Assembly: GCA_018241185.1 (NCBI GenBank)
Contig: JAFEEH010000202.1
Span: 1-41,874, forward strand
Reading direction: 5' to 3'
DNA: 41,874 nucleotides
From: Pseudomonadota bacterium
GTDB taxonomy: Bacteria > Pseudomonadota > Gammaproteobacteria > Burkholderiales > Burkholderiaceae_C
The notes under the pieces are model-generated. The model saw nothing but the letters and a program-made list of their open reading frames with translations. It did not search any database and was not told where the DNA came from. This document shows positions 29,403-41,874 of the stretch, piece after piece. Within the stretch, counting starts at the first letter, position 1, and the number at the start of each line of letters is the position of its first letter. Made by a program: the position numbers and the translations under genes.

Positions 29403-31223
29403 AGAGAAATCCCGCCCCGAAGCGCCTGGGCGCTGGAGCAGGCCGGCGTGCACCCGCTGCTGGCGCGCCTGTATGCCGCGCGCGGCGTGCTGTCGGCCGC
29501 CGACCTGGACGACGGCCTGGCGCGACTGCTGCCGCCCGACACGATGAAGGGCACGCGCGAGGCCGCCGTGCTGCTGGCCGACGCGATCCGCGACGGCCGG
29601 CGCCTGTGCGTCGTGGCCGACTACGACTGCGACGGCGCCACCGCCTGCGCGGTCGCGGTGCGGGGCCTGCGGCTGTTGGGCGCGCGCCAGGTCGGCTACC
29701 TCGTGCCCGACCGCGTGGTCGACGGCTATGGCCTCACGCCGCCGATCGCCGAACGCGTGGCCGCCACCGGCGCCGAAGTGCTCATCACCGTGGACAACGG
29801 CATCGCCAGCGTCGAGGGCGTGGCCAGGGCCAAGGCGCTCGGCCTGACGGTGCTCGTGACCGACCACCACCTGCCCGGACCCGTGCTTCCGGAAGCCGAC
29901 GTGCTGGTGAACCCGAACCAGCCCGGCTGCGAATTCGAGAGCAAGAGCATCGCCGGGGTGGGCGTGATGTTCTATGTGCTGCTCGCGCTGCGGGCGGAGT
30001 TGCGGGCGCGCGGAGCATTCGCGCCGCCACGTCCACCATCCGTTCACGCTGAGCCTGTCGAAGCGCCGCGCGAGGCTTTGACCCTTCGACAAGCTCAGGA
30101 CAGGCCAGGCTCAGCCCGAACGGCTGGGGATGCTTGCGCCCCCACGCCGGCACAACCCAAGCTCGACACCCTGCTCCCCCTCGTCGCCCTCGGCACCGTC
30201 GCCGACGTGGTGAAGCTCGACCCCAACAACCGCCGCCTCGTCGCCCAGGGCCTCAAGCGCATCCGCGCCGGTGCGCTGCCGCACGGCGTGGCGGCCCTCT
30301 TCCACGCGGCGGGCCGCAAGGCCGAGGCGGCGACCACCTTCGACTTCGGTTTCGCCCTCGGGCCGCGCATCAACGCCGCCGGCCGCCTGGCCGACATGAC
30401 GCTGGGCATCGAATGCCTGCTCAGCGACGACGCCGGGCGCTGCGCCGAGCTGGCGCGCACGCTCGACGGCATCAACCGCGAGCGGCGCGACATCGAGGGC
30501 GGCATGCGCGAGCAGGCGCTGCTGCTGGCCGAATCGCTGTTCGATGACAACGAGACGCCGCCTTCTGCGATCAGCGTGTTCGACGTGGACTTCCACGAAG
30601 GCGTGGTCGGCATCGTCGCCTCGCGCATCAAGGACCTGCACCACCGTCCCACCTTCGTCTTCGCGGCCAGCGCTGCCGACGGCAAGTCGCACGAGCTCAA
30701 GGGCTCGGGCCGCTCGATCCCCGGCTTCCACCTGCGCGACGCGCTCGACCTCGTGGCCAAGCGCCATCCCGGCGTGCTGCTGCGCTTCGGCGGCCATGCG
30801 ATGGCGGCCGGCTGCACCGTGGCGCGCGACCAGTTCGAGGCCTTCGAGCGCGCCTTCGCCCAGGTCGCGCACGAATGGCTCGACGCCGCCACGCTCACGC
30901 GCCGGCTCGACACCGACGGCCCGCTGGCCCGCGAGTACCTGCGCATCGACCTGGTCGACACGCTGCACCGCGAGGTCTGGGGCCAGGGCTTCGCGCCGCC
31001 GACTTTCAGCGACGAGGTCGAGGTCGTCTCGCAGCGCCTGGTCGGCGAGAAGCACCTGGCACTCAAGCTGCGCCTGCAGGGCCAGCCCATCGACGGCATC
31101 TGGTTCGGCCACACCGATCCGCTGCCCGCGCGCGTGAAGCTGGCCTTCCGCCTGGATGCCGACGAGTGGCAAGGCACGCGGCGATTGCGCCTGATGGTCG
31201 AAGGTGCGGAGCTCATGACATGA
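29388..31223 (+). CDS. recJ: Single-stranded-DNA exonuclease RecJ with an internal repeat-encoded insert
   Basis: A 5'-to-3' single-strand exonuclease used in RecF-pathway recombination and mismatch repair. The 611 residues show the DHH phosphoesterase motifs VVADYDCDGATACA, LITVDNGIA and VLVTDHHLPG, then GPRINAAGRLADM. The DHHA1 part has FHEGVVGIVASRIKD and RFGGHAMAAGC, and an OB-fold follows at the C-terminus. Residues 218-246 (VHAEPVEAP ... LRQAQDRPG ...) are encoded by a REP-like palindrome and sit between FYVLLALRAELRARG and LDTLLPLVALGTVADVV, which normally are close together. The frame is kept and motifs on both sides are intact. The start is supplied by repeat R1. Confidence 0.95.
   Translation: MKIVAREIPPRSAWALEQAGVHPLLARLYAARGVLSAADLDDGLARLLPPDTMKGTREAAVLLADAIRDGRRLCVVADYDCDGATACAVAVRGLRLLGARQVGYLVPDRVVDGYGLTPPIAERVAATGAEVLITVDNGIASVEGVARAKALGLTVLVTDHHLPGPVLPEADVLVNPNQPGCEFESKSIAGVGVMFYVLLALRAELRARGAFAPPRPPSVHAEPVEAPREALTLRQAQDRPGSARTAGDACAPTPAQPKLDTLLPLVALGTVADVVKLDPNNRRLVAQGLKRIRAGALPHGVAALFHAAGRKAEAATTFDFGFALGPRINAAGRLADMTLGIECLLSDDAGRCAELARTLDGINRERRDIEGGMREQALLLAESLFDDNETPPSAISVFDVDFHEGVVGIVASRIKDLHHRPTFVFAASAADGKSHELKGSGRSIPGFHLRDALDLVAKRHPGVLLRFGGHAMAAGCTVARDQFEAFERAFAQVAHEWLDAATLTRRLDTDGPLAREYLRIDLVDTLHREVWGQGFAPPTFSDEVEVVSQRLVGEKHLALKLRLQGQPIDGIWFGHTDPLPARVKLAFRLDADEWQGTRRLRLMVEGAELMT
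30040..30123. repeat. REP-like palindromic element inside recJ
   Basis: CCGTTCACGCTGAGCCTG (30040-30057) pairs with 30106-30123 at 16 of 18 positions; inner arms TGTCGAAG (30056-30063) and CTTCGACA (30084-30091) are perfect. The GCTGAGCCTGTCGAAG/CTTCGACAAGCTCAGG words are those of a repeat found in many proteobacterial intergenic regions (from memory). Here it is translated in frame. Confidence 0.85.
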
Positions 31224-31936
31224 CCGCACCCGCCAGTGCCATGTGGCGCTGCCTGGTGATCGAGGACGACGAGGCCAATGCCCGCTACATCGCCGACGGC
31301 TTCCGGGCCATGGGGCATGTGGCGGTCGTGTGCCGCGAGGGCGCGGACGGCCTGGCACGCGCCACCGGCGAGGCCTGGGACCTGGTCATCCTCGACCGCA
31401 TGCTGCCCAATGGCGTGGACGGCCTGTCGATCCTCTCGACGCTGCGCAACCTGGGCCTCCGCACCCCCGTGCTGGTGCTCAGCGCCCTGAGCGCGCTCGA
31501 CGAGCGCGTGCGCGGGCTGAAGGCCGGCGGCGACGACTACCTGGCCAAGCCCTTCGCCTTCTCCGAACTGGCCGCCCGCGCCGAGGCACTGGTGCGCCGC
31601 TCGCGCACCGGCCCCGAAGTGCGCGTGCTGCAGCTGGCCGACCTGCGGCTGGACCTGGGCAGCCGCAAGGTCGAACGCGCCGGCCGCGCCATCGCGCTGC
31701 AGCCGCGGGAGTTCCGCCTGCTGGCCTGCCTGATGCTCAACGCCGGTCAGGTGATGACGCGCACCATGCTGCTCGAGGCCGTGTGGGACTACCAGTTCGA
31801 CCCGCAGACCAACGTGATCGACGTGCAGATCAGCCGCCTGCGCACCAAGCTCGATGCGGCCGGCGGCCCCTCGCTCATCCACACCGAGCGGGGCGTGGGC
31901 TACCGCCTCGCCGCACCCGACGCCCCGCCAGCCTGA
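31220..31936 (+). CDS. OmpR-family response regulator
   Basis: A 238-residue DNA-binding response regulator. The receiver domain (about 10-125) has the acidic pair in VIEDDEAN, phospho-acceptor Asp59 in LVILDRMLPNG, and Lys110 in YLAKPF. The C-terminal winged helix (about 135-232) has LQPREFRLLACLMLNAGQ and NVIDVQISRLRTKLD with HTERGVGYRL. The start overlaps the recJ stop (ATGA), and its stop overlaps the kinase start (TGATG), so recJ, regulator and kinase are translationally coupled. The likely target is the tctBA transporter downstream, by analogy with TctD of TctDE systems; that is inference. Confidence 0.93.
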   Translation: MTAPASAMWRCLVIEDDEANARYIADGFRAMGHVAVVCREGADGLARATGEAWDLVILDRMLPNGVDGLSILSTLRNLGLRTPVLVLSALSALDERVRGLKAGGDDYLAKPFAFSELAARAEALVRRSRTGPEVRVLQLADLRLDLGSRKVERAGRAIALQPREFRLLACLMLNAGQVMTRTMLLEAVWDYQFDPQTNVIDVQISRLRTKLDAAGGPSLIHTERGVGYRLAAPDAPPA

Positions 31937-33297
31937 TGGGCACGCTGCGCCGCCTGTGGGCCTCGGCGGGCTTCCGGCTCGCCTTCCAGTATGCGGTGCT
32001 GGTGGCCATCACCATGATGGCGGCGCTGGCCATCGTCTACCTGCAGACGGTGGGCGTGCTGCACCAGCGCATCGCGCGCCAGGTGGGCGCCACCGTGCAG
32101 CAACTCGTCGCGCGCTTCGACGGCGAAGGCGCCGCCGGCGTCGTGCAGGCGATCGACGCGGCGCTGGCCGACGGCCGCCAGTCCGACGAGGAGATGTACC
32201 TGCTGGCCGCGCCCGACGGCCGGCGCCTCGCCGGCAACCTCGATGCGCTGCCCGAGGGCATCGGCGACAGCGACGGCCAGCGTCGTGCGCTGCGCCGCGG
32301 CGAGCCCGTCACCGGCTACCTCGCGCAGCGGCGGCTGGCCGACGGCCATGTGCTGGTGGTGGGCCACGACCTGCGCGACCAGGAGGCGCTCGAGTCGCTG
32401 GTCGTCAGCGCCAGTGCCGCGGCCGGCGTGGTGGCGCTGCTGCTGCTGGTGGGTGGCGTCTTCGTGTTCCGCCAGGAGCTGGACCGTGCCGTGGGCGCCG
32501 TGCGCCGCACTGCCACGCGCATCGCCGACGGCGACCTGCGCGAGCGCGTGGCGGTGGAGGCGCAGGACGACGAGTTCGCCCGCCTCGGGCAGGACATCAA
32601 CGCGATGCTCGACCGCATCGAGTCGCTGATGGCCGGCGTGCGGCACGTGTCCGACACCATCGCCCACAACCTGCGCACCCCCCTCACGCGCGTGCTGCTG
32701 GGTTTGCGCGCCGCCCAGGCCGAGGGCGTGCCGCCCGGCGAGCGCGAACGCGCCGTCGCCACCGCCATCCGCGACCTCGAGGCGCTCGGCACCGTGTTCG
32801 AGAAGCTGCTGCAGATCGCCGAAGCCGAGACCGGTGCGCGCCGCCGCGACTTCGCCCCCGTGGCGCTGCACACCATCGTGGACGACGTGCTGGAGCTGTA
32901 CGACGCCGTGGCCGAGGCGCAGGGCGCCACGCTGCAGCGGGAAGCGGCCGACGAGGAGGTCGTGGTGCCTGGCGACCGCGACCTGCTCGCCGGCGTGGTG
33001 GCCAACCTGGTGGACAACGCGCTCAAGTACGGCGGCACGGGCTGCACCGTGACGGCCGGCGCGTACTGGGACGACGGACGTGCGGTGCTCACCGTGCGCG
33101 ACGACGGCCCCGGCGTGCCGCCGGCCGAGCGCGAGCGCATCGGCACGCGCTTCGTGCGCCTCAAACCCGAGCTGCCCGGCCAGGGCCTGGGCCTGGCCAG
33201 CGTGCAGGCGGTGGTCGCGCTGCACGGCGGGCGGGTGCGCTACGCCGACGCCGATCCGGGCCTGCAGGTGCGCATCGAGCTGCCGCGCCACGGCTGA
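31936..33297 (+). CDS. Sensor histidine kinase
   Basis: A 453-residue inner-membrane kinase. The first membrane helix is about residues 17-38, a periplasmic region of about 115 residues follows, and the second helix is about 156-178. A HAMP-like linker (RTATRIADGDLRERV) leads to the HisKA domain, with phospho-acceptor His244 in DTIAHNLRTPLTRV. The ATPase domain has N box NLVDNALKYGG, G1 DDGPGVPPAER and G2 GQGLGLASVQAVVALHGG. It partners the preceding OmpR-type regulator. The next gene, tctB, begins 157 bp downstream, with a dyad between them. The signal could be a carboxylate, as with TctE, but no binding motif proves it. Confidence 0.93.
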   Translation: MGTLRRLWASAGFRLAFQYAVLVAITMMAALAIVYLQTVGVLHQRIARQVGATVQQLVARFDGEGAAGVVQAIDAALADGRQSDEEMYLLAAPDGRRLAGNLDALPEGIGDSDGQRRALRRGEPVTGYLAQRRLADGHVLVVGHDLRDQEALESLVVSASAAAGVVALLLLVGGVFVFRQELDRAVGAVRRTATRIADGDLRERVAVEAQDDEFARLGQDINAMLDRIESLMAGVRHVSDTIAHNLRTPLTRVLLGLRAAQAEGVPPGERERAVATAIRDLEALGTVFEKLLQIAEAETGARRRDFAPVALHTIVDDVLELYDAVAEAQGATLQREAADEEVVVPGDRDLLAGVVANLVDNALKYGGTGCTVTAGAYWDDGRAVLTVRDDGPGVPPAERERIGTRFVRLKPELPGQGLGLASVQAVVALHGGRVRYADADPGLQVRIELPRHG

Positions 33298-33319
33298 CCG
33301 CCCCCTCACTGCTCCACCC

Positions 33320-33339
33320 ACATTGCCGAATGGCAATGT
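33320..33339. promoter_or_regulatory. 8-bp dyad upstream of tctB, candidate operator
   Basis: ACATTGCC (33320-33327), GAAT, GGCAATGT (33332-33339): perfect inverted repeat in the 157-bp gap between the kinase gene and tctB. There is no T-tract, so a protein-binding site is more likely than a terminator. Confidence 0.5.
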
Positions 33340-33454
33340 TCCCGTCATCCACGGCGGCGCCCGCTCTTCCTACGATCGCCCACGCACTTCCCGTGCCCTT
33401 CACGGTGCGCGCCCGCGCCCGTGCGATCCGCAACGATACGAGGAGACTTCCAGG

Positions 33455-33940
33455 GTGAAGATCAAGAGTCAGAGAGACTTCTTTTCCGGCGCGCTGTTCT
33501 GCGCCTTCGGCGTGGCCTTCGCCTGGGGCGCCACCACCTACAACGTCGGCACCGGCGCCCGCATGGGGCCCGGCTACTTTCCGCTGATCGTCGGCGTGCT
33601 GATCGCCATCATGGGCGCGCTCATCACGGCCAAGTCGATGATCGTCGAGACCGAGGACGGCGAGCCCGTGGGCCGCATCGCCTGGAAGCCCCTGGTCTTC
33701 ATCATCAGCGCCAACGTGTTGTTCGGCGTGCTGCTGGGCGGCCTGCCGAGCATCGGCCTGCCGCCGATGGGGCTGATCGTCGCCATCTACGCCCTGACCT
33801 TCATCGCCGGCCTGGCCGGCGACAAGTTCAGCGTCAAGGCCTCGGCCGTGCTGGCGACCATCCTCGCCATCGGAAGCTACCTGGCCTTCGTCGTCGCGCT
33901 CAAGCTGCAGTTCCCCGTGTGGCCCACCTTCGTCGCCTGA
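33455..33940 (+). CDS. tctB: Tripartite tricarboxylate transporter small subunit TctB
   Basis: The small membrane subunit (four predicted helices) of a TctCBA-type carboxylate importer. The 161 residues begin with a GTG start at 33455 (KIKSQRDFFSGALFCAFG) preceded by AGGAGA at about 9 nt. WGATTYNVGTGARMGPGYFP is the family signature. The helices fall at about residues 10-28, 40-60, 78-100 and 132-152. tctA follows by 34 bp. No tctC gene for the periplasmic binding protein is in the window. Confidence 0.92.
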   Translation: MKIKSQRDFFSGALFCAFGVAFAWGATTYNVGTGARMGPGYFPLIVGVLIAIMGALITAKSMIVETEDGEPVGRIAWKPLVFIISANVLFGVLLGGLPSIGLPPMGLIVAIYALTFIAGLAGDKFSVKASAVLATILAIGSYLAFVVALKLQFPVWPTFVA

Positions 33941-33974
33941 TCCCCCACTACAACGAGACATCCGCTCCGGCCCC

Positions 33975-35486
33975 ATGGAACTCTTCGACAACCTGGCGAT
34001 TGGCTTCGGCGTCGCCTTCACTTTCCAGAACCTCGTCTACGCCTTCGTCGGCTGCCTGCTGGGCACGCTGATCGGCGTGCTGCCGGGCATCGGTCCCGTC
34101 GCGACCATCGCGATGCTGCTGCCGGCCACCTACGCGCTGCCGCCGGTGTCGGCGCTCATCATGCTGGCGGGCATCTACTACGGGGCCCAGTACGGGGGAT
34201 CGACCACTGCCATCCTGGTCAACCTGCCGGGCGAGTCCTCGTCCGTGGTCACGGTGATCGACGGCTACCAGATGGCGCGCAAGGGCCGCGCCGGGCCCGC
34301 ACTCGCCGCGGCGGGGCTGGGCTCCTTCTTCGCCGGCTGCGTGGGCACGATCATCCTGGCCGCCTTCGCGCCGCCGCTGACCGAACTGGCCTTCAAGTTC
34401 GGCCCGGCCGAGTACTTCTCGCTCATGATCCTCGGCCTGATCGGTGCCGTGGTGCTGGCCTCGGGCTCGCTGCTCAAGGCGATCACCATGATCCTGCTGG
34501 GCCTCGCGCTGGGCCTGGTCGGCACCGACGTGAACTCCGGCGTGGCGCGCTATTCCTTCGACATCCCCGAGCTGACCGACGGCATCGGCTTCATCGCCAT
34601 CGCCATGGGCGTGTTCGGCTACGGCGAGATCATCGGCAACCTGTCGCAGCCCGAGGAGAGCCGCGAGGTCTTCACCTCGAAGGTCAAGGGCCTGATGCCG
34701 ACCAAGGAAGACTTCAAGCGCATGGCGCCCGCGGTGCTGCGCGGCACGGCCCTGGGCTCGGCGCTGGGCATCCTGCCCGGCGGCGGCGCGCTGCTGTCGT
34801 CCTTCGCGTCGTACACCATCGAGAAGAAGATCAAACGCAAGCCCGGCGAAGAGGCCTTCGGCAAGGGCAACATCCGCGGCGTGGCGGGCCCCGAGTCGGC
34901 CAACAACGCCGGCGCACAGACCTCCTTCATCCCGCTGCTGACACTGGGCATCCCGCCCAACCCGGTGATGGCGCTGATGGTGGGCGCGATGACCATCCAC
35001 AACATCCAGCCCGGCCCGCAGGTCATGACCAGCAACCCCGAACTGTTCTGGGGCCTGATCGCCTCGATGTGGATCGGCAACCTGATGCTGATCATCCTGA
35101 ACCTGCCGATGATCGGCATCTGGATCAAACTGCTGACCATCCCGTACAAATGGCTCTTCCCCGCCATCGTGCTGTTCTGCGCCGTGGGCGTCTATTCGGA
35201 GAACAACAACACCTTCGACGTGTGGATGGTGGCGATCTTCGGCATCGTCGGCTACGCCTTCCTCAAGCTCAAGTGCGAGCCCGCACCGCTGCTGCTGGGC
35301 TTCATCCTGGGGCCGATGATGGAGGAGAACCTGCGCCGGGCGCTGCTGCTCTCGCGCGGCGACTGGTCGGTGCTGGTCACGCGGCCGATCTCGGCCGGCC
35401 TGCTGGTTGCGGCGGCGGCGCTGCTGGTGATCGTGCTGCTGCCGGCCGTGAAGGCCAAGCGCGAGGAAGCCTTCGTCGAGGAGTGA
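33975..35486 (+). CDS. tctA: Tripartite tricarboxylate transporter large subunit TctA
   Basis: The large permease subunit, 503 residues with about 11-12 membrane segments. Family signatures are GVLPGIGPVATIAMLLP, YYGAQYGGSTTAILVNLPGE and its repeat GILPGGGALLSSFASY ... PLLTLGIPPNPVMALM, then PLLLGFILGPMMEENLRRAL. It imports citrate or another dicarboxylate/tricarboxylate, but the substrate is set largely by the missing TctC protein. It is followed 25 bp later by a strong terminator that closes the tctBA unit. Confidence 0.96.
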   Translation: MELFDNLAIGFGVAFTFQNLVYAFVGCLLGTLIGVLPGIGPVATIAMLLPATYALPPVSALIMLAGIYYGAQYGGSTTAILVNLPGESSSVVTVIDGYQMARKGRAGPALAAAGLGSFFAGCVGTIILAAFAPPLTELAFKFGPAEYFSLMILGLIGAVVLASGSLLKAITMILLGLALGLVGTDVNSGVARYSFDIPELTDGIGFIAIAMGVFGYGEIIGNLSQPEESREVFTSKVKGLMPTKEDFKRMAPAVLRGTALGSALGILPGGGALLSSFASYTIEKKIKRKPGEEAFGKGNIRGVAGPESANNAGAQTSFIPLLTLGIPPNPVMALMVGAMTIHNIQPGPQVMTSNPELFWGLIASMWIGNLMLIILNLPMIGIWIKLLTIPYKWLFPAIVLFCAVGVYSENNNTFDVWMVAIFGIVGYAFLKLKCEPAPLLLGFILGPMMEENLRRALLLSRGDWSVLVTRPISAGLLVAAAALLVIVLLPAVKAKREEAFVEE

Positions 35487-36473: not shown

Positions 36474-37151
36474 TCAGCGCCCGAACTCGTGGCTCAGCCC
36501 CACGGTGTACACGGCGCCGCCCGGTCGCACCTTGGCGGCGCTCAGGTCCAGCGTCAGCATCGGCGTGAGGCCGAAGCGCAGCCCGCCGCGCGTGGTCCAG
36601 GCGCCCTGCGCGCGGTTGCGCTCGAGGATGAACGAGACTTTTTCGTCCACCGCCCATTCGGCGGCCGCGCCCACGCGGCGCGTGCGCACCCCGGTGCCGG
36701 CAGCCCAGTCGGCACCAAGATTGGCATGCAGTTGCAGGCTCGGCAGCGGCTGCCAGGTCACCGGCAGCAGCCACTGGCGGCTGGGCTTGCCATGGTTGCG
36801 CAGGTCCCACGAAGCGGCGAACTCGACGGCGGCGCGCAGCGGATCGTCGGGTTGGCCGTACCAGGTCCACTTGAGGGCCGGGCCCGCGGTGCGGCTGCGC
36901 GCGTCCGGAGAGGACGAGCGGTCGAGGTTCAGGCCCAGTTCGACCGGGCCGACGCGGCAGGCGGGGCCGACATGCTGGAAGCCGGTCGACGTCGTCTCCG
37001 CGCGCCCGGCCCAGGACTCGACCTGGCAGCGACCGGGCGCCAGCGTATCGGCGTCGTCGACCTCGAAGTGGCCGCCCGCGCCCGCGCTGCCCGCCGCCAG
37101 TGCCAGGACGGCTTGCGGGAGAAGGTGCGGAATGCGGAGGCGAAGCGGCAT
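36474..37151 (-). CDS. Exported barrel-like protein, function unknown
   Basis: A 225-residue protein with an N-terminal signal (PLRLRIPHLLPQAVLALAAGSAGAGG). The mature part alternates polar and hydrophobic residues (VELGLNLDRSS, LKWTWYGQPDD, LQLHANLGADWAAG, GLRFGLTPMLTLDLSAA). It ends VYTVGLSHEFGR, which suggests an outer-membrane beta-barrel, though the last residue is Arg rather than the usual Phe. I do not recognise a named family. It lies 36 bp downstream of the LuxR-type regulator gene on the same strand, so it may be part of that operon and might be a periplasmic or outer-membrane accessory of the sensor. Confidence 0.7.
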   Translation of the reverse strand: MPLRLRIPHLLPQAVLALAAGSAGAGGHFEVDDADTLAPGRCQVESWAGRAETTSTGFQHVGPACRVGPVELGLNLDRSSSPDARSRTAGPALKWTWYGQPDDPLRAAVEFAASWDLRNHGKPSRQWLLPVTWQPLPSLQLHANLGADWAAGTGVRTRRVGAAAEWAVDEKVSFILERNRAQGAWTTRGGLRFGLTPMLTLDLSAAKVRPGGAVYTVGLSHEFGR

Positions 37152-37187: not shown

Positions 37188-38219
37188 CTACACCTCGAAG
37201 TGCGGCTGGATCATGCGGATGCGCTTGATGGCCACGCCTGCCGCCGCGGTGCGCGTCTCCACGCCGAGCTTGACGAACACGCGCTCGAGGTGCTTCTTCG
37301 CGGTGGCCGGGCTGCTGCCCAGGATGTCGCCGATGTCTTTGTTGGTCTTGCCCTTGACCACCCAGTACAGCACCTCGGCCTCGCGCGCGGTGAGCTTGAG
37401 CGCCAGGCTCATGGCCTCGATCACGCTGGCGTCGGACACCTCGCGGATGATGAGCAGCCAGTCGCCGGCCCAGCCTGGCAGGTTCTGTCCGGGCTCGTCG
37501 CGGTCGCCGGTCTGCTGGTGCACCCGCAGCTGCAGGTGGCGCGCGCCCTGCTCGATGGTCAGCGGTGGCGGCTCCACGCCGCCCGCCGTGGCCGGCAGGT
37601 GCTGGTGCAGCCAGTCGAGCACGGCCGCGGGCGTCTGCGGCGCGGCGGTGCCGCAATAGCGCAGCAGCAGGTCGCGCGCCAGCGAGGTCTGCCAGATGAG
37701 GCGCCCCTCGGGCATGCGCACCGTGATGCTGGCATAGCCGAAGGCATCGAGCGCATTGCGGGCCTGGCCGGCCTGCTGCGCCTGCTGGCGCGCCGCGCGG
37801 GCGCCCTGCAGGTGCACATTCATGCGCGCCAGCACCTCCTTGGGCTTGATCGGCTTGGTCACGTAGTCCACGCCGCCGGCGTCCAGCGCGGCCACCAGGT
37901 GCTCGGTCTCGGTCAGCCCCGTCATGAACACGATGGGGATGTGGGCGGTGGCCGCGTCGGCCTTGAGCCGGCGCGCGACCTCGAAGCCGTCCATGCCCGG
38001 CATCATGGCGTCGAGCAGCACGATGTCGGGCTGCGCCTGCGCGGCGCGGGCCAGCGCCGCCTCGCCGCTGGTGGCGACCAGGACCGTGTAGCCCGATTCG
38101 TCGAGCGCATCGTGCAGCATGGCGAGGTTGTCGGGCACGTCGTCGACGACGAGCACCAGGTCGCCGCGCGCCGTTTCCTCGCGCAGGCTGGCGGCCAGGG
38201 GAGAGGCCGGCGCGCTCAT
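37188..38219 (-). CDS. LuxR-family response regulator with a central PAS-like domain
   Basis: A 343-residue regulator. The receiver domain (about 20-140) has LVVDDVPDN, phospho-acceptor Asp70 in IVLLDAMMPGMDGFE, and Lys122 in YVTKPIKPKE. A Gln/Ala-rich helix (RAARQQAQQAGQARN) leads to a PAS-like middle part (about 155-265, ITVRMPEGRLIWQTSLARDL). The C-terminal LuxR helix-turn-helix (276-343) contains LTAREAEVLYWVVKGKTNKD and HLERVFVKLGVETR. The ATG at 38219 overlaps the stop of the transporter-kinase gene (ATGA), so the two are translationally coupled and almost certainly form a pair. Confidence 0.93.
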   Translation of the reverse strand: MSAPASPLAASLREETARGDLVLVVDDVPDNLAMLHDALDESGYTVLVATSGEAALARAAQAQPDIVLLDAMMPGMDGFEVARRLKADAATAHIPIVFMTGLTETEHLVAALDAGGVDYVTKPIKPKEVLARMNVHLQGARAARQQAQQAGQARNALDAFGYASITVRMPEGRLIWQTSLARDLLLRYCGTAAPQTPAAVLDWLHQHLPATAGGVEPPPLTIEQGARHLQLRVHQQTGDRDEPGQNLPGWAGDWLLIIREVSDASVIEAMSLALKLTAREAEVLYWVVKGKTNKDIGDILGSSPATAKKHLERVFVKLGVETRTAAAGVAIKRIRMIQPHFEV

Positions 38220-41200
38220 GCCACCGACTCCGGCGACGTACCCGCGCGGCGGATGGCCTCGGCCACCGCCTCGAACTGGAACTGGCGCGCACGCGTGCGC
38301 TGCAGCGCGGTCCAGGCGGCGCAGGCCGGCTGGGCGGCGTCGATCTCGTCGAGCTGGGTCATGATGCCGCGAAGGTAACCGAGCTGCACCGCCTCCTCCA
38401 GCGCGCGAAGCCGTTCGGGCGCCGGCGGCACGGACGCGTCGGCCAAATGCGGCGCCACGGCAGCGGCCGTCGCGGTGTCGGTCCACCGCAGCTGCAGGCG
38501 GCGCTCCAGCCAGTCCAGCAGTTCGCTGTGGCGCACCGGCTTGACGAAGAAGTCATCGGGCGTGATGCCGACGTCGTTCTCCAGCCGCTTGTCGAAGGCA
38601 TTGGCCGAGACGATGGCGGTCGCAGGCGCCTCGTCGCCCACCCAGAAGGCGCGCGCCCGGCGCAGCGTCTCCCAGCCGTCGATGCCGGGCATCGCCAGGT
38701 CGACGAACATGGCGTGCGGCCGGAAGCCGGCAGCCAGCAGGTCGAGCGCATCGTGGCCGCTGGCGGCGGTACGCAGCTCGAAGCCCAGCGGCGCCAGCAG
38801 GTGCACGAGCAGGTCGCGGTCGGTTTCTTCGTTGTCGACCACCAGCAGCCGGCGGCGCTCGCCTTCGTAGCCACGCCGGGGCCGTGCCGACACGACGGGC
38901 GGCGGGGCCGCGTTCGACGCACGCACCGGCGCCTCGTGCACCCGCGGCAGGAACAGGCGCACCCGGAACACCGAGCCCTGCCCGGGCGTGCTCCGCACCT
39001 TCATCTCGCCGCCCATCAGGTCGGTGAGCATCTTGGCCATCGTCAGGCCCAGGCCGGCGCCGGGCGTTGCGGCGGCGCCGGGCGAGTCCACGCGCACGAA
39101 GGGCTCGAAGATGCGCGCCTGCGCCTGCGCGTCCATGCCGGGGCCGGTGTCCTCGATCTCGAGCGTGGCGAACTCGCGCGCATAGGCCACTCGCAGGCCC
39201 ACTTCGCCGCGCGCGGTGAACTTGATGGCATTGCCCAGCAGGTTGATGAGGATCTGGCGCACGCGCTTTTCGTCGGCACGTACCACCTCGGGCAGCGTGT
39301 CGCTGGGCTCGAAGCGAAAGCGCAGGCCCTTCTCGGCGGCCTGTAGCTCGAACATCTCGGCCAGCTCGCGCAGCATGTCGACGAAGCGCAGCGGCTTCGC
39401 CTGCAGGGTGAGCTTGCCCGACTCGATGTGGGCCAGGTCCAGCGTGCCCTCGATCAGCGACAGCAGATGCTCGCCGCCGCGCTTGATGACGGCCACGGCC
39501 TGCTGCCGGTGCGGCGGCACGGAGGCGTCCTCGCCCATGAGCTGGGCGTAGCCGAGGATCGAATTGAGCGGTGTGCGCAGCTCGTGGCTGATGGCGCTGA
39601 TGTAGCGGCTCTTGGCCTGGTTGGCGGCATCGGCCGTCTGCTTCGCTTCCTGCAGGGCGCGGTCGGTCTCGCGGTGCAGCTCGATCTCGCGCATGAGCAG
39701 GCGGGTCTGGCGGTTCGACTCCTCCTGCGCCACCTTGCGGCTCTGGTGCGCCAGCACCAGCCACCAGGCGACGATGCCGGCGATGAGCAGCAATGCCATG
39801 TAGGCCTTGAAGAAGCCGCCGCGCAGCGCGCCGCTCACTTCCGCGCTCATCGCCTTGCCCATGCTCGGCGCGGCGCTGGCGCCGGCCTTCACCCATTCGC
39901 CAACACCGCGCAGCTCTTGCTGGTAGAGCACGCCGAACACCGCCGCCAGCAGCGGCACGACGATCAGCATGAGCATGATGAAGTGGCCCAGGCCGGTGTC
40001 CAGGTAGGGCCACACGCGACGCGGCAGCAGCCAGCGCAGGGTCGCCGACCACTGCGCCGAGAGCGACGCGTGCGGCTTGCAAAGGTCGCCGCAGCGGGCA
40101 TCGAGGGTGCAGCACAGCGAGCAGATGGCGCCCTGGTACGCGGGGCAATGCGCCATGTCGGGGCCTTCGTACTCGCGTTCACAGATGACGCAGCGCTGCG
40201 TGGCCAGGCGGGCATAGGCGCCCTCCTGCGTTTCGGCGCGGGCACGCCCTGCGTCCGGCCTGAAGACGAGCGGCCGCGAGCCTGCGTCACGCGCGAGGTA
40301 GTAGCGCCCCCTCGTCGCCCACGCGATCAGCGGCGCCGTCACGAAGGCCGTGCCCAGCGCGATCACGGCCGAGAAGGACTGCGCCAGCGGCCCGAACACG
40401 CCCAGGTGCGCCGTGATCGACAGCGCCGAGGCGAGCACCATCGCACCCACGCCCACCGGGTTGATGTCCCACAGGTGGGCGCGCTTGAACTCGATGCCCG
40501 GCGGCGACAGGCCCAGCGGCTTGTTCACGACCAGGTCGGCCACCACCGCCATCATCCAGGCGATGGCGATGTTGGCGTACAGGCCCAGCACGTCGCCCAG
40601 GGCCTCGAACACGTTCATCTCCATCAGCATGAAGGCGATGAGCGCGTTGAAAACCACCCACACCACGCGCCCCGGGTGGCTGTGCGTGACGCGCGAGAAG
40701 AAGTTGCTCCACGCCAGCGAGCCCGCGTACGCGTTGGTGACGTTGATCTTGAGCTGCGAGATCACCACGAACAGCGCCGTGGCCGCCACCGCCCACCCGT
40801 AGTGCGGGAACACGTACTCGTAGGCCGCGAGGTACATCTGGTTCGGGTCGACCGCGCGCTCGGTCGGCACCATGTGGGTGATCGCCAGGTAGGCCAACAA
40901 TGCCCCGCCCAGCATCTTGACCACGCCGAGCAGCACCCAGCCCGGCCCACCGGCCATGACGCCCAGCCACCAGCGGGCGCGGTTGGCGGTCGTGCGCGCC
41001 GGCATGAAGCGCAGGTAGTCGGCCTGCTCGCCCATCTGGGTGATGAGCGCGATGCCCACCGTGAGCGCCGCACCGAAGAGGTGCAGATTGAAGCCCGCCG
41101 AGCCCTTGCGATCCCCGGCGTAGTGCGTGATGCCTGTGAATGCACCGGGATCGCGCATGAGCACGAAGCCGAAGGGCACCACCAGCATCAGGAGCCAGAT

Positions 41201-41854
41201 GGGCTGCGTCCACAGCTGCAGGCGGCTGATGGCCGAAACCCCGTGCGTCACCAGCGGGATGACGACCAGCGCACACACCAGGTAACCCCAGGCCGGTGGG
41301 ATGCCCAGGGCGAGTTCGAGCGCGTAGGCCATCACGGCCGCCTCGAGCGCGAAGAAGATGAACGTGAAGCTGGCGTAGATCAGCGAGGTGATGGTCGAGC
41401 CGATGTAGCCGAAGCCCGCCCCACGCGTGAGCAGGTCCATGTCGACGCCGTAGCGCGCGGCGTACACGCTGATCGGCCAGCCGGCCAGGAAGATGATGAG
41501 CCCCGTCGCCAGGATGGCCCACAAGGCGTTGGCGAAGCCATACTGCACCAGCAGCGTGGCGCCCACGGCCTCCAGGATCAGGAAGGACGCGGCGCCGAAG
41601 GCCGTGTTGGCCACGCGCCATTCGGACCATTTGCGAAAGCGCTGCGGCGTGAAGCGCAGCGCGTAGTCTTCCAACGTCTCGCTGCCGACCCAGCTGTTGT
41701 AATCGCGCCGCACCTTGACGATGCGCTGGGGCGCGCCGTCGCGGGCGACGTCGGGGGGCGAGGTGGCGGACTCGGGGGGCACACCAATGCGGTGCACATT
41801 CCATGCCGAAGTCCGCCCGCGGCACGACTGTTGCAAGGACGCGTCGTTGCCCAT
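38216..41854 (-). CDS. NCS1 nucleobase transporter fused to a cysteine-rich module and hybrid histidine kinase
   Basis: A 1212-residue fusion. Residues about 50-530 are a complete-looking NCS1 (purine/cytosine permease-type) transporter: RRDYNSWVGSETLEDYALR, about 12 membrane helices, NVTNAYAGSLAWSNFFSR. A cysteine-rich module follows (C555, C558, H569, C570, C578, C581, C582, C588, C592, H595), a likely zinc fold. Two more helices (about 625-645 and 688-708) precede the kinase, with His757 in AISHELRTPLNSILG and ATPase boxes EDTGPGMDA and GAGLGLTMAKML. A receiver domain has Asp1052 in FVDLAMPGIDGWE, and a helical tail ends the protein. The ATG at 41854 has GGGAGG 4 nt upstream. The role is inferred as sensing, perhaps also importing, a nucleobase-like compound and signalling to the overlapping LuxR-type regulator. 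Confidence 0.93.
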   Translation of the reverse strand: MGNDASLQQSCRGRTSAWNVHRIGVPPESATSPPDVARDGAPQRIVKVRRDYNSWVGSETLEDYALRFTPQRFRKWSEWRVANTAFGAASFLILEAVGATLLVQYGFANALWAILATGLIIFLAGWPISVYAARYGVDMDLLTRGAGFGYIGSTITSLIYASFTFIFFALEAAVMAYALELALGIPPAWGYLVCALVVIPLVTHGVSAISRLQLWTQPIWLLMLVVPFGFVLMRDPGAFTGITHYAGDRKGSAGFNLHLFGAALTVGIALITQMGEQADYLRFMPARTTANRARWWLGVMAGGPGWVLLGVVKMLGGALLAYLAITHMVPTERAVDPNQMYLAAYEYVFPHYGWAVAATALFVVISQLKINVTNAYAGSLAWSNFFSRVTHSHPGRVVWVVFNALIAFMLMEMNVFEALGDVLGLYANIAIAWMMAVVADLVVNKPLGLSPPGIEFKRAHLWDINPVGVGAMVLASALSITAHLGVFGPLAQSFSAVIALGTAFVTAPLIAWATRGRYYLARDAGSRPLVFRPDAGRARAETQEGAYARLATQRCVICEREYEGPDMAHCPAYQGAICSLCCTLDARCGDLCKPHASLSAQWSATLRWLLPRRVWPYLDTGLGHFIMLMLIVVPLLAAVFGVLYQQELRGVGEWVKAGASAAPSMGKAMSAEVSGALRGGFFKAYMALLLIAGIVAWWLVLAHQSRKVAQEESNRQTRLLMREIELHRETDRALQEAKQTADAANQAKSRYISAISHELRTPLNSILGYAQLMGEDASVPPHRQQAVAVIKRGGEHLLSLIEGTLDLAHIESGKLTLQAKPLRFVDMLRELAEMFELQAAEKGLRFRFEPSDTLPEVVRADEKRVRQILINLLGNAIKFTARGEVGLRVAYAREFATLEIEDTGPGMDAQAQARIFEPFVRVDSPGAAATPGAGLGLTMAKMLTDLMGGEMKVRSTPGQGSVFRVRLFLPRVHEAPVRASNAAPPPVVSARPRRGYEGERRRLLVVDNEETDRDLLVHLLAPLGFELRTAASGHDALDLLAAGFRPHAMFVDLAMPGIDGWETLRRARAFWVGDEAPATAIVSANAFDKRLENDVGITPDDFFVKPVRHSELLDWLERRLQLRWTDTATAAAVAPHLADASVPPAPERLRALEEAVQLGYLRGIMTQLDEIDAAQPACAAWTALQRTRARQFQFEAVAEAIRRAGTSPESVA

Positions 41855-41874
41855 AATGCCTCCCGACCCCAGCG

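Follow-up and report, generated by a model that had tools for sequence, protein, structure and literature searches.

The 41,874-nucleotide stretch analyzed here (the window; contig JAFEEH010000202.1 of assembly GCA_018241185.1, from a member of the Burkholderiaceae_C) encodes on its minus strand a single chain in which an NCS1-like permease domain, an eight-cysteine module, and a hybrid histidine kinase are joined, followed directly by the gene of a LuxR-type response regulator. We consider it likely that this protein serves as the sensor in a two-component system for the use of urea and short-chain amides, with the NCS1-like domain as its receptor. The parts of the system are given below, with residue numbers counted throughout from the ATG at 41854.

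38216..41854, minus strand: permease-kinase open frame, 1212 codons from ATG, third-position GC 0.93
40256..41725, minus strand: NCS1-like permease domain (residues 44-533 as compared), from profile-profile comparison with NCS1 and from Foldseek
40079..40192, minus strand: Cys module C-x2-C-x11-C-x7-C-x2-CC-x5-C-x3-C (555-592), from sequence sets
39926..39982, minus strand: first extra hydrophobic segment (625-643), from a simple hydropathy scan
39749..39805, minus strand: second extra hydrophobic segment (684-702), from the same scan
39416..39616, minus strand: HisKA domain (747-813) with the phospho-accepting His757, Pfam E 1.5e-16
38948..39274, minus strand: HATPase_c domain (861-969), Pfam E 5.2e-25
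38510..38845, minus strand: receiver domain (1004-1115) with Asp1052, Pfam E 1.7e-11
37188..38219, minus strand: partner response regulator, receiver plus LuxR-type helix-turn-helix by Pfam, its start overlapping the kinase stop (ATGA)

The fusion is a real single chain. The original prediction, made from the DNA letters alone, had described one uninterrupted 1212-codon frame, and the minus-strand frame at 38216-41854 is indeed open throughout and coding-like in its third-position composition. Relatives of the sensor are encoded in 552 of 591 candidate genome stretches; the best 80, which were kept, align from residues 1-64 to residues 1196-1212 with best-segment identities of 69-88%, and a paralog in the same genome, 52% identical, matches residues 41-1199. 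Because these loci and the paralog match across nearly the whole length, spanning the join, a frameshift or assembly join between permease and kinase, the error against which the prediction had warned, is ruled out. A frame of more than 1000 residues is present in all 124 extracted loci (two of which are the window itself), and matches spanning at least 80% of the sensor chain occur in at least 501 plasmid records. An even draw of 299 genomes across the phylum yielded 46 that matched the permease-Cys part, 38 at E 1e-150 or better and the other 8 weakly; the draw holds 43 strong places, two of them in shorter frames (894 residues in G091 and 899 in G197).

The genes that accompany the sensor point to urea and amides. 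We scored 132 relatives for urease, Urt-type ATP-binding cassette (ABC) transporter, Fmd-type ABC transporter, and formamidase genes within 12 kb, or as far as the stretch extended. At least one such gene lies near 115 of the 117 relatives with at least 5 kb of upstream DNA, a count to which 80 near relatives contribute that are not independent of each other. None was found at 8 of the 132, 6 of which have at most 1.1 kb upstream. In the even draw, where 40 of the 43 strong places were taken (the window, G197, and G224 were omitted) and one, L189, has too little upstream DNA, all 39 loci with at least 5 kb upstream carry scored genes, the own-genome paralog included. A tree of 61 rows places urease- and urt-linked sensors in several separate positions, namely, the Comamonadaceae (support 85/77), Rhizobium/Shinella with two further genomes (100/100), and the L200-L204 pair (100/100), with fmd-linked sensors elsewhere.

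The genome of the window holds two sensors, one formamidase match, which lies beside the second sensor, and one urease gamma match. The last of these (L211) runs to within two bases of the end of contig C133 (5923 bases), and the contig of the window (C114) itself stops shortly ahead of the sensor:

41855..41874, no strand: contig end, 20 bases before the frame, with the divergent neighbor off the contig

In the nearest relative (88% identical), ureA faces the sensor, and a ureA at a contig end is what would be expected if it also faced the sensor of the window. The arrangement fits an assembly break between the own-genome urease and the window.

An operator-like site is shared among these loci. 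Divergent regions of less than 900 bases were obtained from 110 of the 132 loci (22 were dropped), 40 of them facing an Urt or Fmd gene and 70 facing ureA. TACG-N8-CGTA occurs in 34 of the 40 Urt/Fmd regions, with 0.145 expected by shuffling, and any other TACG/CGTA spacing from 0 to 20 occurs in at most 1; a stricter form, ATACGY-N6-RCGTA, is likewise present in 34. Across the 5.34-Mb genome, the strict form is found three times: next to the paralogous sensor, ahead of an aliphatic amidase gene (NF009802), and ahead of urtA (TIGR03407), both identities being over cut-off. In relatives with a urease context, the site stands ahead of urtA in 20 of 25 loci (0.0 expected), mostly as ATACGCC-N3-GGCGTA; 25 of 26 urtA genes had enough upstream DNA, and one of these loci, L206, is also among the 40 regions. 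The genome scan and the urtA counts are thus partly independent of the set in which the motif was discovered. Gene linkage (115/117) and a common operator (34/40 and 20/25), the two marks by which we judged a regulator of urea and amide genes, are both present.

Related arrangements are seen elsewhere. In the second sensor region of this genome (L169, contig C140:12000-31000, and L223), Fmd-type ABC genes, formamidase, FmdB, and an operator accompany the sensor, and further along it an aliphatic amidase has another operator site ahead. On plasmid pBVIE02, typed as conjugative, a sensor (L124), its regulator, an amide-type ABC transporter, formamidase, and nitrilase lie among transposase genes.

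By profile, the permease is a distant branch of NCS1 and groups with that family and not with SLC5. In hhalign comparisons, the profile built from 42 members gave a probability of 99.3% against nine NCS1 sequences, over the whole transmembrane core (E 6.4e-20, 437 columns), and of 0.3% against eleven SLC5 sequences. The nearest standalone NCS1 relative found, L135, forms a bridge, matching the sensor profile at E 9.9e-48, scoring over the PF02133 cut-off, and sharing 31% identity with the window protein. Residues 44-745 were modeled with AlphaFold2 at medium confidence (pLDDT 63.8, pTM 0.57), and a Foldseek search of the PDB with this model returned CodB and Mhp1 chains at ranks 1 to 5 (E 4e-6 to 1e-5, TMt 0.61-0.65) and, from rank 6, SLC5-type proteins, the sodium/iodide and sialic acid symporters (E from 1.4e-4); because these symporters rank directly after CodB and Mhp1, the predicted fold alone parts NCS1 from SLC5 just modestly. 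The NCS1-type assignment of the original prediction is confirmed in part, on the profile comparison, the L135 intermediate, and Foldseek, without a match to the NCS1 family model itself. PF02133 does not match the window protein at E<=1, and when searched over the whole genome it finds matches elsewhere and not in this frame; for the 42 members at E<=10 it is not among the families listed (25 out of 29), and at most one member could match. Searches of Pfam, NCBIfam, and PDB sequences gave nothing for the permease part among the matches listed.

The domain shares its fold and the motifs of transmembrane segments 3 and 8 (TM3 and TM8) with the NCS1 transporters Mhp1 and CodB but differs from them at key pocket and Na+-site positions. 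Relative to Mhp1, Trp117 is replaced by Phe167, Gln121 by Glu171, and Ser312-Thr313 by Lys369-Ile370, and Trp220 by Leu270, or by Thr265 if a five-residue gap is placed, a non-aromatic residue either way; we take Trp117, Gln121, and Trp220 to belong to the Mhp1 pocket and Ser312/Thr313 to its Na+ site. The loss of Mhp1 substrate residues, which had been named beforehand as a ground for refuting the original prediction, has thus taken place in part.

40748..40750, minus strand: codon of the invariant Lys369, which in alignments takes the position of Mhp1 Ser312 (Na+ site)

Glu95, Glu171, Gln273, Glu276, Lys369, Asn371, and Asn374 are identical in all 65 representatives, and the residues at the Na+ site suggest that the sensor permease lacks Na+ coupling. 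Among seven aligned standalone relatives, a basic residue occupies the Lys369 place in six and Glu the 171 place in five; these residues therefore mark the sub-branch and not receptor function alone. In one alignment, TM6 of the sensor has five extra residues compared with the seven standalone proteins, and the profile alignment is gapless there. The pocket region is largely invariant over urea- and amide-linked lineages, as would be expected for one ligand class.

A screen for permease positions that split urea-linked from amide-linked lineages passed 7 through a loose filter, among which 435 and 336 stand out. Residue 435 (40550-40552) is Gly in 31 of 32 amide-linked sensors and Met, Cys, or Ser in 4 of 5 urea-linked lineages, making it a possible specificity position.

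The surroundings of the standalone relative support amides as the ligand class, in one case. L135 (7949-12984) adjoins genes for a carbon-nitrogen hydrolase, a UrtA-like binding protein, and an AmiR_N-ANTAR protein, and its permease is possibly an NCS1 amide transporter. A second standalone relative in an amide operon was not found in wider searches.

The Cys module is conserved. Eight Cys residues at 555, 558, 570, 578, 581, 582, 588, and 592 keep a fixed spacing in 122 of 122 homologs and in 40 of 40 members of a second, overlapping sequence set. The Cys/His cluster of the original prediction is in this sense borne out for its cysteines; no invariant His lies inside it. When the module was used as a lone query in the 299 genomes, 43 of 45 matches were sensor frames and 2 were marginal (E 6e-4 and 1e-3). 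It has no significant known-domain match, and its likeness to RING and zinc-finger domains is at the level of chance (E 1.5 and 2.8). Such a module could house two Zn sites or a cluster, and a metal or redox role is possible. The two extra helices that had been proposed are present as hydrophobic segments between the Cys module and the kinase.

On the output side, Pfam found the HisKA, ATPase, and receiver domains that had been predicted, and His757, Asp1052, and Lys1105 are kept in all 65 representatives, the residues of a hybrid histidine kinase. After the receiver, no histidine suited to an HPt role is conserved among these representatives. In this the sensor differs from hybrid kinases such as TorS and ArcB; the kinase-receiver part matches TorS best among the NCBIfam matches listed (E 1.2e-81), but the window protein lies far under the TorS cut-off (275.2 versus 676.5 bits). 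A separate regulator gene follows the sensor directly in 129 of 132 relatives, and 2 of the other 3 loci end within 1.8 kb.

The upstream end of the frame carries conserved promoter-like elements that bear on the start codon.

41794..41807, minus strand: sigma-54-like -24/-12 element toward the kinase (GG-N10-GC), a pattern conserved in relatives
41821..41834, plus strand: sigma-54-like -24/-12 element toward the divergent gene (urease gamma in relatives), a pattern conserved in relatives
38216..41782, minus strand: likelier coding sequence, from an in-frame GTG at codon 25, 1188 residues (putative)

The kinase-directed pattern is present in 66 and the ureA-directed pattern in 32 of the 70 ureA-facing relatives, with 0.44 expected by shuffling in each case; among the 40 Urt/Fmd-facing regions, 3 have the pattern toward the kinase and 1 has it toward the divergent gene. 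Since these elements fall in supposed codons 7-21, the GTG at 41782 is the likelier start and the ATG at 41854 is probably not used. The GGGAGG ahead of that ATG does exist, and the ATG itself could not be confirmed as the start.

These observations fit a mechanism in which the divergent NCS1-like membrane domain would bind a small amide: urea, or formamide or acetamide in the paralogous branch. Movement of the receptor domain would be relayed to the kinase through the two helices and the eight-Cys module, whose part in the relay is presumed. The kinase would autophosphorylate at His757, and the phosphate would pass to the adjacent LuxR-type regulator, either directly or by way of the internal receiver. 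The regulators are the putative proteins that would bind ATACGY-N6-RCGTA ahead of urtABCDE, the fmd genes, and the own-genome aliphatic amidase, and would presumably control them in one direction or the other. In the Comamonadaceae branch, the sigma-54-like promoters would add a response to nitrogen shortage to both sensor and urease. In a bolder form, to which we give a little less than an even chance, the protein may be a "transceptor" of NCS1 origin for urea and short-chain amides, with Lys occupying the Na+ site and a polar pocket that recognizes urea; the new eight-Cys module would couple the permease to the kinase, as STAC does in CbrA, and might add a metal or redox gate, so that the family would represent an independent and widespread use of transporter-kinase fusion.

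Several points weigh against assigning the family to urea and amides. Two relatives, L042 and L134, have about 10 kb upstream and yet none of the scored genes nearby. The exact operator is absent from the window, where one-mismatch matches are at the level of chance (3 versus 3.34 expected), and its strict form occurs in 0 of the 70 ureA-facing regions, 22 of which hold a half-site (2.2 expected); the regulator of the window is therefore tied to urtA solely through relatives and one genomic site, a site that might instead serve the paralogous regulator. The count of 34 in 40 is partly circular because the motif was discovered in 16 of the 40 regions later counted, and shuffling ignores kinship. 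The reversed order, CGTA-N-TACG, reaches 3 of the 40 regions, the genome-wide pattern read backwards gives two matches against three, and of 20 amidase genes in relatives, just 2 carry their own operator site. A standalone relative in an amide operon was seen once, in 1 of the 244 genomes from that order, and the hydrolase and binding protein next to it score below the NCBIfam cut-offs. The structure model is of medium confidence with SLC5-type proteins close behind NCS1, residue conservation is no proof that sensing takes place in the permease domain, and urea or an amide as the ligand is read from sequence and gene context.

What the permease senses, if anything, can be argued in other ways. 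Urea and amide genes might be regulated by a protein whose permease is a structural relic, with the Cys module (as a metal, Fe-S, or redox site) or intracellular nitrogen status supplying the signal. The eight Cys kept in every member of both sequence sets (122 and 40), the 43 of 45 lone-module matches that lie in sensor frames, and the sigma-54-like promoters, which suggest nitrogen control in one branch, all agree with such a role, and urease needs nickel. However, a relic need not keep Glu95, Glu171, Gln273, Glu276, Lys369, and Asn371 invariant in 65 of 65 representatives, and the formamidase branch gives no obvious ground for nickel sensing; we regard this explanation as unlikely. It is more doubtful still that the kinase senses by way of its neighbor, a UrtA or Fmd binding protein or an ABC transporter for which the NCS1 domain would provide a docking platform. 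Urt and Fmd ABC genes do adjoin the sensor in many relatives, but 49 of the 117 have urease with no urtA within 12 kb or the extracted stretch, and the invariant polar core is not readily explained by docking.

The original prediction had proposed that a purine, pyrimidine, allantoin, or hydantoin is sensed directly, which now appears very improbable. The domain is NCS1-like, the TM8-motif residues Asn371 and Asn374 are invariant, and eleven annotated plasmid tables contained one nucleobase-type case, at the exceptional locus L134, which has a xanthine-dehydrogenase-family cluster nearby, with no systematic search for nucleobase genes having been made. Set against this, urea or amide genes lie near 115 of 117 relatives, the Trp220 place is non-aromatic, the Na+-site Ser/Thr pair is gone, and the operator ties the regulators to urea and amide genes. 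Purine sensing as the best reading was rejected on gene context and on the altered Mhp1 pocket residues.

A sensor of urea and short-chain amides would join a small group of transporter-headed kinases. The SLC5 permease of CbrA and NCS1-type permeases have the same broad LeuT-type fold. CbrA of Pseudomonas is likewise a permease fused to a histidine kinase that works with a response regulator, and a similar change is described at its Na+ site, where the Ser/Thr residues are not conserved and a Lys (K196) stands in the Na2 site, transport being probably proton-driven (PMC7096432, PMC13022988). In contrast to the SLC5, STAC, and PAS domains of CbrA, our sensor has an NCS1-like permease, the eight-Cys module, and two extra helices; its receiver is in the chain, its partner is of LuxR type, and its neighbors concern urea and amides rather than histidine. 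No significant Pfam match was found between permease and kinase, though the Pfam set was not checked for a STAC model. CrbS and RpuS are also transporter-headed, as SLC5/STAC kinases for acetate and pyruvate uptake that control utilization or uptake genes, but with no Cys module mentioned in the available part of the source (PMC9100948). Ks-Amt5 is another transporter turned sensor of a nitrogen compound, an ammonium-transporter-fused kinase triggered by binding, but its permease is an unrelated trimeric Amt/Rh protein in which transport is lost (PMC5764959). In Dechloromonas aromatica, a 1131-residue histidine kinase and a CheY-like protein lie beside UrtA, with no comment on a fusion in the part of the paper available (PMC2907700). 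No description of an NCS1-headed kinase or its regulator was found in a search of largely open-access literature, judged by the titles and abstract openings listed and by parts of PMC2907700 and PMC4161386. The transporter-fused hybrid kinase with a Cys-rich module that was predicted is upheld, with NCS1 favored over SLC5 by profile, and the family is common yet apparently undescribed, in a setting where transporter-headed kinases were already known with SLC5 and Amt.

Elsewhere in the window, an OmpR-type regulator, a HAMP histidine kinase, and a TctA permease lie in a row at 30875-35486, presumably akin to a tripartite tricarboxylate system controlled by TctD/TctE. The gene downstream of the partner regulator (36474-37151) has a weak Phenol_MetA_deg match (E 0.00081, below cut-off), and its product is possibly an outer-membrane protein.

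Urea is a major nitrogen fertilizer and excretion product, and to our knowledge, dedicated membrane urea sensors in soil Proteobacteria are little known. If our reading is true, one protein family links outside urea or amides to the genes for urease, Urt, and formamidase, and its targets would be predictable from the ATACGY-N6-RCGTA site. NCS1 would then be the third transporter family known to us to head kinases, after SLC5 and Amt, and the same change to Lys at the Na+ site as in CbrA makes it testable whether transporters become receptors by losing Na+ coupling.

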